IMG/VR virus record: IMGVR_UViG_3300018080_008436
Coordinates: 122,998-186,997 of that record
Source of the DNA: a virus
Length of the DNA: 64,000 nucleotides
Strand: one strand, 5' to 3'
The notes below the pieces were generated by a model. That model saw only the letters and a list, made by a program, of their open reading frames with translations, was not told the origin of the DNA and did no database searches. The translations under genes and the position numbers were made by a program. Positions 7,276 through 19,123 of the stretch are shown in pieces. Positions within the stretch are counted from its first letter, which is position 1; every line of letters begins with the position of its first letter.

Positions 7276-8073
7276 CTATGCAAGAACTTTTACGGAATCA
7301 CTGACCTGCATCCCCTTTGCAGTCATTTCATCGACAAAGCCATCCCCCAAGAACTCCAGAGTTGGAACATTGGAACAAAGATCTTCAAGAAGATAAATCT
7401 TCTGAGCGAAGTCGTCCCCCAACTCATAAACGATGTCGCGTACTGTATTGGCTACGCAATGGCTCAAAGCCTCTCCTGCAACCAACAGCATATCAGCACG
7501 ATTCAGCACTTCCAAAAAGAATCTATTGGGAAGAGTGTTTCTGTCCAACGGATCTGGAACTTCTGCTTTGATGGCCGAATAATGTTCGGTATAGGGGTTC
7601 TCCCCCTTGAAGATGTAATTGATCCCCTTGTGGTGATCTTTGCTCAACTTGCGCAAAGCATCAGATACTCTCTTCTCAATCTGAAACCCTTCAGTTCCAG
7701 CGATACAATGAGGTGGCCAAATGGTCAAAGGATATCGTCCGTTTTCCTCAAGTTCCTTCACATACTGTTCAGCCCAAAGAGCGTCCCGAGTATCTGCCAC
7801 AGTATACAGACCATCCTCCAATACCTTCCTTGTGATAGACGTAAGAGGATTAGGTTCATTCCCTTTGCCATCCTTCCAAAAAACGGGATGAGCAATATCA
7901 TACTCATTATGGCAGTCCATTGTCACATGAGTATGAGTGAATTTATGGCCATGCAGGGCCAGGAATTTGGCGAGACGAACACAGTCTTGGTCTGCGCCTC
8001 TAACATAGAGTGCTCCTTCGGGATCGCAGAAATCGTTCTGTGGGTCAATGATCAACAGTTGTAGGTTTGGCAT
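7276..8073 (-). CDS. pncA: Nicotinamidase (isochorismatase-fold amidohydrolase)
   Basis: 265 residues, close to bacterial PncA plus small insertions. The catalytic triad is visible as D10 (IDPQNDF), K156 (IFKGENP) and C206 (EALSHCV), with metal ligands D53, H55 and H62. It should convert nicotinamide to nicotinate, the first step of NAD salvage; the matching nicotinate phosphoribosyltransferase is at 17939-19123. Start ATG follows AGGAG. It heads the operon that runs through the transglutaminase-like gene into the cas genes. Another hydrolase of the isochorismatase family is possible, but the WPPHC and triad motifs favour nicotinamidase. Confidence 0.85.
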   Translation of the reverse strand: MPNLQLLIIDPQNDFCDPEGALYVRGADQDCVRLAKFLALHGHKFTHTHVTMDCHNEYDIAHPVFWKDGKGNEPNPLTSITRKVLEDGLYTVADTRDALWAEQYVKELEENGRYPLTIWPPHCIAGTEGFQIEKRVSDALRKLSKDHHKGINYIFKGENPYTEHYSAIKAEVPDPLDRNTLPNRFFLEVLNRADMLLVAGEALSHCVANTVRDIVYELGDDFAQKIYLLEDLCSNVPTLEFLGDGFVDEMTAKGMQVSDSVKVLA

Positions 8074-9934: not shown

Positions 9935-9962
9935 ACAGTAGCATATAAAAAGGATTTGTCAA
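9935..9962 (-). promoter_or_regulatory. Class A promoter of the RuvB-like gene
   Basis: TTGACA (9962-9957), 16-bp spacer, TACTGT (9940-9935) on the minus strand. It overlaps the last codons of the sigma-factor gene upstream. Confidence 0.7.
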
Positions 9963-10789
9963 GGTAGAATCTCGTCTTCTTGAAGATTTTTTCTGAAAAG
10001 CTTCTTTTGAATCTTTTTCGTCTCTTGCACTCGAATCTGACGAATTCTCTCTGCGCTAACATTATATTTATCTGCCAAGTCCTGTAGACGGACCTTGTCT
10101 TCCTCATATTTGGAAAGAACGATCTCACGAATTCTTGGATCAAGTTCGTAGAGAATCTCTCGTAAGTACGACAACAGGTCTTCCTTCTCCACATCATCAT
10201 ATGGAGTAGAATTATCATCTGGAATCAAATCCTCCAACATAGAGGAATCATCACCAGAACCTTGTCGCTTTTGCAGAGAAACTGTGTTGACGCTTTTTGC
10301 CCTTTCAAGCTTCTGCATCTTCTCTTCTGAGAACTCAAGTTTCTCTTTGATCTCTTCCCTATCCATCTCTCCATCTGATTCACGAATAGCGGTCTGGATC
10401 TTGATTAATCCGTCATGAATGCTTTGAGGAATTGCAACAGGGCAACTTTCTTGGATATGACGAATCATTTCAAGCTTAATCCAGTATCCACAGTAAGTGG
10501 TGAACTTGCAGTTCTTCTCAAGTTCAAATTTCTCGATAGCAGTCATCATACCGATTACACCTGCTCCAATCATGTCATCCATATCTACTTGACACTTCTT
10601 GCAGTAGTAATTGGCCATTTGGGATACGAACCTAATGTGGCTTCTAACAATCTTCTCAATAGCACTATCTTTCTGTGCTTGGGTGTAATCTTCTCCTTTG
10701 ATGATGGAGAAGAGTTCTCTTTCCTCTTTCAGGGAGATATTTGGAATAGAAACTGAGTTTAGGTACTTATCTGCATCCCAATTCTGCAT
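9959..10789 (-). CDS. RNA polymerase sigma-70 family factor
   Basis: 276 residues with recognisable regions. Region 2 is around FVSQMANYYCKK, DDMIGAGVIGMMTAIEKF and TYCGYWIKLEMIRHI, region 3 follows QSIHDGLIKIQ, and region 4 has the helix-turn-helix RLQDLADKYNVSAERIRQIR. It should redirect host core RNA polymerase to phage promoters. It is the best conserved of three sigma-like genes in the window (others at 40347 and 54892). Start ATG follows GAGG. A candidate for reading one of the two promoter families seen here. Confidence 0.9.
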   Translation of the reverse strand: MQNWDADKYLNSVSIPNISLKEERELFSIIKGEDYTQAQKDSAIEKIVRSHIRFVSQMANYYCKKCQVDMDDMIGAGVIGMMTAIEKFELEKNCKFTTYCGYWIKLEMIRHIQESCPVAIPQSIHDGLIKIQTAIRESDGEMDREEIKEKLEFSEEKMQKLERAKSVNTVSLQKRQGSGDDSSMLEDLIPDDNSTPYDDVEKEDLLSYLREILYELDPRIREIVLSKYEEDKVRLQDLADKYNVSAERIRQIRVQETKKIQKKLFRKNLQEDEILP

Positions 10790-11142: not shown

Positions 11143-11664
11143 TTACCATGGCAGTTCGTCTGATTGTTCTGACCTTTTGTCAAAAAGGTCATAGACTGTC
11201 ACTTGGATACCTTTGTCGATCAACTCTTCTTTCAAAATCTTCTCGACCTCTTCCCATTTGCCACCTGCCAAGTCACATCCCATAAGATACGGGAAATGAG
11301 CAGTTGCGTTGTAATGCTTGCAAACTTTACGAATGAATGCACAACCTTCTCGCAGTGCCCAGTATCGAACAGGGGGAACGCCGTTCTGTTCCTTCAATCC
11401 ATGCTGACCGATAATGTTAGCAACAACAATGTCATCCTCAACAGCAACAAACTGGACTTTTCCACAAGTGAACTCCTGGTTATTGTGGGAATTAGTTTTG
11501 TGCCAACCAACATAATCAGATCGAACTTTGGGCCATTTGTCCAACAGAGCTTTGGCAACTCCGCTTCCCATTCGGCCCAAATCATTGCAACAATGTCCAA
11601 TAATCTTACGTCCTTCGCCTTGGGGGTTTCTGACATCGCCTCTGCTGATGTATTCAATTTCCAT
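11143..11664 (-). CDS. Macro domain protein (ADP-ribose binding)
   Basis: 173 residues forming a single macro domain. The first strand is followed by IIGHCCNDLGRMGSGVAKAL, matching the H-x-C-N-x-x-G-x-x-G-x-G-x-A ligand loop, and NIIGQHG matches the second. Macro domains bind or hydrolyse ADP-ribose, ADP-ribose-1''-phosphate or O-acetyl-ADP-ribose. In this phage, with NAD-salvage genes nearby, it may clear ADP-ribose made by host defence NADases or remove ADP-ribosylation; that is inference. Start ATG follows AAGGAGG. Confidence 0.85.
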   Translation of the reverse strand: MEIEYISRGDVRNPQGEGRKIIGHCCNDLGRMGSGVAKALLDKWPKVRSDYVGWHKTNSHNNQEFTCGKVQFVAVEDDIVVANIIGQHGLKEQNGVPPVRYWALREGCAFIRKVCKHYNATAHFPYLMGCDLAGGKWEEVEKILKEELIDKGIQVTVYDLFDKRSEQSDELPW

Positions 11665-11755: not shown

Positions 11756-12613
11756 TTAAGTGAACATTCTCTTCTTGAGGTTATCCTTTTTCCCTTCCAA
11801 TTGAGGGGTTTGTGGATATTGTCTTGAAGGAAGTTTCTTTCTCAAAAGCTTGTAGAAGTCATTGTAAGTAAGCTCTGGCTTGCTTCTAATGATCGCAACG
11901 GCATTCGCAGTCATAGCTCCCTGGAATTTCCCACCAATTCTAGCGTCATAGCTATATTGAGTTGGATTACACCCAGTGATAAGAACTTCTTTCATCTTTT
12001 CAGGTGAGAAGACTTTCTTAGAAACTGACTTAGGAGCGATCTCAAATACTTCTTCATCATCTTCAGGTGGAAGATATCTTGGTTTAGGAGCGTTCTCATC
12101 ATAAAGAGTACTCAAAAACGATCTAGTTACTGTTCCTGAATGACATGAGTCAGAAATGAAAGTAAGACTTGCCCCTTCTGGCAATCCGCCTAAGATCTCT
12201 CTCAACTGGTCATCAATCAAAAGTTTGTCATACAAACAAAGAGCTTCGTCTCTTTTGTCAGCTTCGTCTCCACTAACATCTCTGACATTAGTTCCATGTC
12301 CTGAGAAAGTGATGACAACATGACTGTCTGCGGTTGCGTTCTCAACAATCTTTTTCATCTCTCTGACAACATTCTTGTAAGTGGCCTTCTGGTCAAGAAG
12401 TTTGGTCGTTGTGAAGCCATAAAGTTCTTTTAACAATGCTTCCCATGAATTAGCATCGTTAACACAACCTCTAAGATCATTTCTTCTTCCTGGGTAATCA
12501 TTGATTCCAATGTGAAGAGATTGTTTGCAACCTTTCCCCTCACAAACCCTTTCTGTTTTTTTTGTAAAGATTTCAATAAATTTTCTCATGAATTTCCAAT
12601 CCCATAATTTCAT
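11756..12613 (-). CDS. Metacaspase (caspase-fold cysteine protease, C14)
   Basis: 285 residues with a complete type I metacaspase core. The catalytic His is H106 in TFSGHGTN and the catalytic Cys is C157 in SDSCHSGT. An early GINDYPGRRNDLRGCVNDA block and the GDEADKRDEALCLYD specificity loop are also typical. Metacaspases cleave after Arg or Lys. About 30 residues, including a short cysteine motif (CEGKGC), precede the core, and a basic tail (KKDNLKKRMF) ends it. Start ATG follows GGAGG. A phage copy is unusual: it might process virion or host proteins, or interfere with caspase-like host defences. Confidence 0.9.
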   Translation of the reverse strand: MKLWDWKFMRKFIEIFTKKTERVCEGKGCKQSLHIGINDYPGRRNDLRGCVNDANSWEALLKELYGFTTTKLLDQKATYKNVVREMKKIVENATADSHVVITFSGHGTNVRDVSGDEADKRDEALCLYDKLLIDDQLREILGGLPEGASLTFISDSCHSGTVTRSFLSTLYDENAPKPRYLPPEDDEEVFEIAPKSVSKKVFSPEKMKEVLITGCNPTQYSYDARIGGKFQGAMTANAVAIIRSKPELTYNDFYKLLRKKLPSRQYPQTPQLEGKKDNLKKRMFT

Positions 12614-12675
12614 AATACACCTCCATAGGCAAATCTACGGAGATATTTCTAAAAATAATTAATGAATACCTGCCT

Positions 12676-13362
12676 TTAGATCTCGGTTACATCGCCCTTA
12701 GCAACAACTCTGGCAAGCCGACCGCAATAGCCCCCATGATGCCTCTTGGCATACTCATCTGGAGTTAATCCACATTTTTCTGAAGCAATAATTGCCAAGC
12801 AGTCTGTGATGGCCAACATAACAAGAATACTGGTTGTAGGTGCGATACCCATCTCTCCAATTTCGTTGATCTCCCCCATGTCCAAGCAAACATCTACTTC
12901 ATCCCGAATCGGGCTGTCTTCATGTGAAGTAATTCCAATGAACTTTCTTACTCCAAGATTTTTGGCTAACTTGATTGTTTCAAGTACTTCTCTGGTTTTC
13001 CCAGAAGTCGATGCGACAAACAACACATCATTAAATCCAAGGATACCAAGATCCCCATGAGAAGCTTCTCCTGGGTGTAAGTAACAGGAAGAGAACCCTA
13101 AGGAACAAAGAGTTGAGGAAAACTTCCTCATCGCTACTCCTGCCTTTCCCATACCTGTTGTGACTATTTTGTAGTCTTCTTCTGAAGTTGTCGCGAAACT
13201 AGAATTCGCAATCAAATCTATGGCGTGAATAAAATTCTCATCTAGTTGAATATTAGCTATTGCTTCGGAAAGAGTAACTAGGTATTGATTACCTTTACTA
13301 ACCTCACCATTCAACTCCACCCTCACATTCCTCGTCCTCTCCTTCTCCATCATCTCCATCAT
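12676..13362 (-). CDS. SIS-domain phosphosugar isomerase-like protein
   Basis: A single SIS (sugar isomerase) domain resembling the isomerase half of KdsD/GutQ: VTTGMGKAGVAMRKFSS, then a FVASTSGKTREVLETI loop holding the Ser/Thr phosphate-binding residues, and a C-terminal HHGGYCGRLAR. No CBS domains follow, so it is a short form. In LPS or teichoic-acid pathways such enzymes convert ketose- to aldose-phosphates; here it might feed capsule or DNA-modification sugars. The start is uncertain: the frame overlaps the previous gene's acidic tail by 59 nt, so a GTG at 13326 or a TTG at 13314 may be the real start. Confidence 0.8.
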   Translation of the reverse strand: MMEMMEKERTRNVRVELNGEVSKGNQYLVTLSEAIANIQLDENFIHAIDLIANSSFATTSEEDYKIVTTGMGKAGVAMRKFSSTLCSLGFSSCYLHPGEASHGDLGILGFNDVLFVASTSGKTREVLETIKLAKNLGVRKFIGITSHEDSPIRDEVDVCLDMGEINEIGEMGIAPTTSILVMLAITDCLAIIASEKCGLTPDEYAKRHHGGYCGRLARVVAKGDVTEI

Positions 13363-17938: not shown

Positions 17939-19123
17939 TTACTCAACTCCATAAGCTTTCTTGACTCTTTCAACCATGTCTGGATCGCCCATAGTCTTAC
18001 CTAAATCATCTGACAGCTTGACCAGAGGCTTGCCGTTACAACTCATGAGCTTCATAACGACATTCAGAGGCTTTCTACCTACGTCATTCGACAAGTTAGT
18101 ACCAATCCCGAACGCAACCCCAACTCGACCTGCAAAATGCTTCCAGATGTTGATTGCTTTACTTACATTCAAGCTGTCAGAGAAGATGATCGATTTCCTT
18201 TTGGGGTCAATACCAACACTCTCATAATGAGCAATCATATCGTTACCAAATTTAATAGGATCTCCACTATCCTGCCTGACTCCATCATAAGCCCTGGCAA
18301 CTGGGAATGTGAAGTCATTGAAGAAAGCCTTCGTTGTGAAAGTATCAGTCAAAGCGATACCAAGAGCCTGTCCATACTCCTGTTGCCATACATACAATGC
18401 CCTGCTTTGAGCCTGATCTATACGATCAACCAAACCAAGATGACTCATCGTCCATTCATGTGCAACAGTCCCGATTGGCTTAATTCCATACTTCATGGCA
18501 AGATAGACGTTTGAAGTCCCAATCATATTTCTTGGGCATTTGTCCACCAAAGTGCAAACTTCCTCTTCCTGCCAATCTCTGGAATATCTTCTTCTGGTGC
18601 CGAACTCAGCGAAAATGAGATTTGGGTAGTCACGGATTTGACTTATCTTATTTTCCAGTCTTTCCCTTCCATCACGAAGGATCATATCCAAATCAAGTTC
18701 GAAGATATCTCGTTCAAATTCGAAATACAACTCGTTCACAATAGAAAGGATGTAAACTTCCAGAATGTTGACAAAAACCAAGCTCCCTTTCGCTCGGATG
18801 ATGATATCACCATTTCCATCATCGTCAACAGTAACCCCAGCAATACCTGGAACAAATCTGCTTTGAAACCACTCAAGAAAGTCTTCCTTAAAATATCCGA
18901 GACTTTTGAGATATTCTCTCTCTTCATCACTCAAACGAAGATTTTTCAGATTGTCAATCTGTAGCTTAACATTCTTTTTTAAATGCCCAAGTTTTACCTC
19001 TTTATCACGATTACGAAACTCCCAATGCCCATACGCAGTCGGGTACTGATGATAGTAAGCCTGGAGCATCGAAAGTTTGTAAAGGTCAGTATCCAAAACA
19101 CTTGTGATAATTGGATCGTTCAT
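17939..19123 (-). CDS. pncB: Nicotinate phosphoribosyltransferase
   Basis: 394 residues, the usual length. It starts SVLDTDLYKLSMLQAYY, as NAPRTases do, carries the phosphorylatable His region GTVAHEWTMSH, and has a phosphate-binding DSGDPIKFG loop. It converts nicotinate and PRPP to nicotinate mononucleotide, the step after nicotinamidase in the Preiss-Handler route; NadD and NadE would have to come from the host or from outside the window. Its ATG overlaps the previous stop (ATGA). Confidence 0.92.
   Translation of the reverse strand: MNDPIITSVLDTDLYKLSMLQAYYHQYPTAYGHWEFRNRDKEVKLGHLKKNVKLQIDNLKNLRLSDEEREYLKSLGYFKEDFLEWFQSRFVPGIAGVTVDDDGNGDIIIRAKGSLVFVNILEVYILSIVNELYFEFERDIFELDLDMILRDGRERLENKISQIRDYPNLIFAEFGTRRRYSRDWQEEEVCTLVDKCPRNMIGTSNVYLAMKYGIKPIGTVAHEWTMSHLGLVDRIDQAQSRALYVWQQEYGQALGIALTDTFTTKAFFNDFTFPVARAYDGVRQDSGDPIKFGNDMIAHYESVGIDPKRKSIIFSDSLNVSKAINIWKHFAGRVGVAFGIGTNLSNDVGRKPLNVVMKLMSCNGKPLVKLSDDLGKTMGDPDMVERVKKAYGVE

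Follow-up and report, generated by a model that had tools for sequence, protein, structure and literature searches.

A metacaspase-type cysteine protease encoded in the replication region of a very large phage

Introduction

Metacaspases are proteases akin to the caspases, which act in the cell death of animals. They have been described in bacteria, protists, plants, fungi and the giant viruses that infect eukaryotes. Type I metacaspases are defined by a prodomain with proline-rich repeats or a zinc finger (PMC7475262). The residues proposed to form the S1 pocket of TbMCA2 are Cys92, Asp95, Ser156 and Asp211 (PMC4357240), and the Ca2+ site of CgMCA-I consists of Asp198, Asp214 and Asp245 (PMC9622860). 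Among the giant viruses of eukaryotes, medusavirus and Heterosigma akashiwo virus 01 encode metacaspases (PMC6450098). For phages, the operon context of metacaspase genes in Clostridium botulinum was described as phage-related in a 2012 survey (PMC3501461). Our literature search, with subscription journals largely outside its scope, gave only this note on operons and no description of a large phage with a metacaspase. Metacaspases in phages have hardly been noticed so far. Here we describe one in a 64-kb stretch of DNA, called the window below, which is part of a virus record of 476,248 bases.

Results

The original prediction placed a phage metacaspase at 11756-12613 of the window. An ORF lies exactly there, on the minus strand, while the plus strand is full of stops. 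The ORF is complete and encodes a 285-aa metacaspase-type cysteine protease with p20, a short linker and p10. A strong Shine-Dalgarno sequence, GGAGGTG (12618-12624, minus strand), stands 4 bases 5' of the first ATG, and because of this the N-terminus is likely real. A promoter scan gave fewer sites than in shuffles and was left unused. The protein matches Peptidase_C14 (PF00656) with an E-value of 2.8e-28 and 99.6 bits, where the curated cut-off is 21.4, and it is the only such match in the whole record. It had no match among the PHROGs, which are without a matching family. The complete catalytic motifs that had been predicted are confirmed, with H106 within FSGHGT and C157 within SDSCHSG. 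These are the dyad motifs SGHGT and DxCHSG, and both the His and the Cys are invariant across 19 aligned relatives. An AlphaFold2 model built with 19 aligned sequences has a mean pLDDT of 81.6 and a pTM of 0.81, and its best PDB matches are GSU0716 of Geobacter (3bij) and the Arabidopsis metacaspases 9 and 4 (E ~1e-17). The motif is not a chance pattern, and by family the phage enzyme itself is an ordinary metacaspase.

The type I label given to the protein holds for its architecture. The p20 region precedes p10, both align to AtMC4, Yca1 and CgMCA-I, and their strands are seen in the model. The linker between DSCHSG and the p10 strand has ~45 residues, so the long linker of type II is absent. 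However, only ~29 residues lie ahead of p20, with no proline-rich or zinc-finger prodomain, and in this respect the label does not apply. Several Lys and Arg residues are found in the linker, none of which could be singled out as an autoprocessing site.

In a motif alignment with invariant spacing around the dyad, Cys92, Asp95, Ser156 and Asp211 of TbMCA2 correspond to C50, D53, S104 and D155 of the phage protein. Since all four residues of the acidic S1 pocket are kept, cleavage after Arg or Lys is expected, and this specificity is what we predict from the sequence. We infer that the enzyme is catalytically active. The Ca2+ site is partly kept. The equivalents of Asp198, Asp214 and Asp245 of CgMCA-I are D122, D134 and R164, with D135 also at the site, so that the third of the three aspartates found in a calcium-activated metacaspase is replaced by arginine. 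As judged from this alignment, a Ca2+ switch of the eukaryotic type is probably weakened or absent, R164 standing in the place of D220 (TbMCA2 numbering). R164 is nearly invariant among the aligned group, bacterial copies included. Because of this, weak or absent Ca2+ control is predicted for the group as a whole and is not a phage trait.

The DNA of the window is phage DNA. It is a replication region with genes for a DNA polymerase, a NAD-dependent ligase, a RecJ-like nuclease, UvsX, SbcC, a clamp, a clamp loader and a sigma factor, and there are no tRNA genes within the 64 kb. The terminase, portal, major head protein (capsid) and head-maturation protease are encoded elsewhere in the same record, from parts of which the gene content was drawn. 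A location in host DNA had been named as the finding that would overturn the original prediction, and the replication module, capsid, portal and terminase instead mark the record as phage.

Many large phages process their head proteins, and cutting of head proteins after Arg or Lys would be possible. The original prediction had named the maturing of virion proteins as one possible role, and an enzyme packaged in the virion is a variant of it. However, ~295 kb away, a gene between those for portal and capsid encodes another protease, one for head maturation (phrog_18299, E 1.9e-19), and a second protease-like ORF lies near the terminase. The metacaspase itself has neither the family match nor the head-cluster position of a head-maturation protease, and a syntenic relative, L126, is without it. 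Because the phage encodes its own head-maturation protease beside the capsid genes, we consider the virion role very unlikely.

The metacaspase gene lies in a conserved block. Its upstream neighbour, a SIS-domain sugar-phosphate isomerase gene (12676-13362, minus strand), is conserved in the phage contigs L003 (161 kb) and L126 (186 kb), and a phage sigma factor gene (9959-10789, minus strand) forms the conserved downstream border. In L003, these two genes likewise flank a metacaspase, which is 53% identical. The run common to the window and L003 comprises NAPRTase, SLOG, a 298-aa protein, an exonuclease, a 177-aa protein, SIS, the metacaspase, the sigma factor and a RuvB-like protein. The nine other genes common to the two loci have identities of 26-52.5%, below that of the metacaspase. 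In the same run of L126, SIS is followed directly by a phosphoesterase, with no metacaspase in the slot, and there is no C14 match anywhere in the L126 record; the virus records compared are linear and may be fragments. In the shared genes, L126 resembles L003 more than either resembles the window. Therefore, loss of the metacaspase in L126 is the simplest reading, with separate gains as the alternative. The window and L003 are the only case of retention seen within this lineage. One gene of L003 (12340-13536) has its homologue in L126 (17985-20945) split in two ORFs, the second ending in an intein-like manner (NDMLVHNS), and this is probably an intein. In a 1167-aa ribonucleotide reductase (L096:524-4027), two matching stretches are separated by foreign families, and this protein may also hold one.

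Each of the three phages has a different content in the slot between SIS and the sigma factor, and both L003 and L126 have a phosphoesterase where the window has a macrodomain gene. This variability, together with the empty slot in L126, would fit a moron, i.e., cargo with no role in infection. Yet the full active site has been kept across a wide divergence, with 53% identity between the two copies, and the gene is as well conserved as its replication neighbours, so that mere cargo appears highly improbable.

The enzyme had been called unusual in phages, and a search for relatives in other phages had been proposed, which we carried out. In annotated phage records the rarity is evident, since only one of 50,697 has a relative at an E-value of 1e-5 (LR745208; 485 kb, 31%). 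A scan of IMG/VR with the single sequence found no relative. Searches with two-row and nine-row alignments did find relatives; at least ~25 IMG/VR contigs carry a metacaspase. A Pfam search found the C14 domain in 26 of 29 virus records examined, the window's included, and a terminase match in 11 of the same 29. Nearly all full-length viral copies have both catalytic motifs, the exceptions being L105, which falls outside the Cys pattern searched, and L009, which has no His motif at the usual place. The relatives retain the active site, and the substitutions in close relatives that would have told against the original prediction were not seen. At L009:7872-8723 the metacaspase His block is at the C-terminus, after p10, which represents either a rearranged enzyme or a misassembly.

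The copies of the window and L003 are sisters in the trees, with support of 100/96, and of 100/94 in a 55-row tree. Well-supported branches force at least three label changes in the tree, and by tree path KSB1 and Calditrichota are the nearest bacteria. In the 55-row tree, where the placement of long branches is uncertain, the AU test rejected one common clade for all metacaspases from viral contigs (p 5e-53). Clustering of neighbouring genes gave no conserved partner gene in phages outside the block common to L003, and no potential substrate protein accompanies the metacaspase gene in two or more of the phages.

In the window only, a gene for a macrodomain-like protein (phrog_335, DarG-like; 11143-11664, minus strand) adjoins the metacaspase. 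Its match to DarG of DarTG is weak, and it is a possible anti-ADP-ribosylation factor. Genes for NAD+ salvage are found in the vicinity or in other parts of the genome. They encode a nicotinate phosphoribosyltransferase (17939-19123, 5e-71), an isochorismatase-like protein (7276-8073, a weak match at 7e-5) and, in the same phage, a NAD synthase (G000:108060-108842, which is L097:5063-5845; 6.6e-45). These genes could rebuild NAD+ against NAD-depleting defences. Because of the DarG-like neighbour and the salvage genes, the region may hold anti-defence genes, and the metacaspase could then cut or compete with a host defence protein of the caspase-like, gasdermin or toxin-antitoxin kind. Two further points favour such counter-defence. 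The cyanobacterial metacaspase MaOC1 cleaves an antitoxin (PMC7935541), and bacterial relatives often stand beside a ~1800-aa protein, by eye lipase-CHAT-TPR, that looks like a cell-killing module. The gene for this ~1800-aa protein follows the metacaspase in L024, L035, L040 and 15 other bacterial loci; the L024 copy was the one read by eye, and its apparent lipase, CHAT and TPR-like parts could point to a module for cell death or defence. However, the macrodomain neighbour is not conserved in L003 and L126, and the phage would itself suffer if the protease released a toxin. We regard counter-defence as possible but unlikely.

Residues 6-23 of the phage protein, WKFMRKFIEIFTKKTERV (12545-12598, minus strand), form a predicted N-terminal amphipathic helix, of which residues 6-17 are helical in the model. 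Its hydrophobic moment of 0.62 was reached by 49 of 5000 shuffles, and all 121 other ORFs tested from the same phage fail to match its moment and hydrophobicity. This segment is likely a membrane-surface anchor. Similar N-terminal helices are found in L112 and L114, hydrophobic TM-like segments in L103, L118 and L119, and a lipobox in L110. In L003, the N-terminus of the metacaspase lacks such an amphipathic helix. Therefore, membrane binding is not conserved in the pair of window and L003, and the membrane part of our explanation is weakened.

Membrane anchors in several viral copies would also fit a lysis or envelope factor that would act late at the inner membrane and aid lysis, either by cutting envelope proteins or by activating a lysis protein. 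In five contigs (L099, L104, L115, L116 and L118) an endolysin gene is at most two genes away from the metacaspase, against 1.9 expected (P 0.035 under a rough chance model), though this enrichment is weak, with candidates picked by eye and a crude null. An amidase gene is at +3 in L007, and two lipoprotein-like ORFs precede the metacaspase in L003. However, no endolysin was found near the metacaspase in the window or in L003, the gene of the window lies among replication genes, and the L106 and L108 copies are also near replication genes. A role in lysis seems unlikely, with a chance close to that of its rival, counter-defence.

Discussion

The fold family, the complete dyad and S1 pocket, the phage location and the conserved gene order are directly supported by our data. 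We favour a membrane-associated protease of the infection stage because of the separate head protease, the location in the replication region, the N-terminal helix, and the anchors and endolysin neighbours of other copies. In our proposal, a C14 metacaspase passed from bacteria to a lineage of very large phages, which then kept the gene. The protease would fold as a single p20-p10 domain, its amphipathic helix would place it on the inner surface of the membrane, and it would cut selected proteins after Arg or Lys inside the infected cell. Among possible substrates, host proteins of regulation, the envelope or defence would be more likely than proteins of the virion. We infer activity, membrane binding, specificity, timing and substrate from the features described above. 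Taken as a whole, this explanation has, in our judgement, somewhat less than an even chance of being correct. Of the roles in the original prediction, the cutting of host proteins stands as the best guess. A broader idea, that phages repeatedly took up metacaspases as membrane-tethered proteases for takeover or lysis, as a counterpart of caspase-driven cell death, is doubtful.

The less expected part of these findings is the repeated acquisition by phages and the retention in gene order. If active, the enzyme offers a simple system for the function of a caspase-fold protease outside programmed cell death, and lets one ask whether phages steer host death or lysis with such proteases. If the tethering is true, membrane-tethered phage metacaspases would be a class not described so far.

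Among known systems, bacterial metacaspase-like proteases are the closest, with up to 49% identity (nearest KSB1/Calditrichota and Chloroflexota; GSU0716, 3bij, is a solved example). The phage protein shares with them the p20-p10 order, the dyad and the S1 residues, and R164 with the sequenced relatives. A hydrophobic TM-like segment at the C-terminus sets the KSB1/Calditrichota copies apart from the phage protein, and many Pseudomonadota copies have a large CHAT-type gene adjacent, which the phage gene has not. In BFVD, all 22 fold matches at E <= 1e-4 are giant-virus proteins; these have 10-29% identity to the phage protein, and their viruses have eukaryotic hosts. The operons of Clostridium botulinum (PMC3501461) are an earlier hint of a link to phages, yet they are in bacterial genomes. 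With Yca1, CgMCA-I and TbMCA2, the phage protein shares the dyad, the S1 pocket and D122 and D134 of the shared Ca2+/Sm3+ sites, plus D135. It differs from them in having no prodomain and in R164, which replaces the third aspartate (D245 of CgMCA-I, D220 of TbMCA2).
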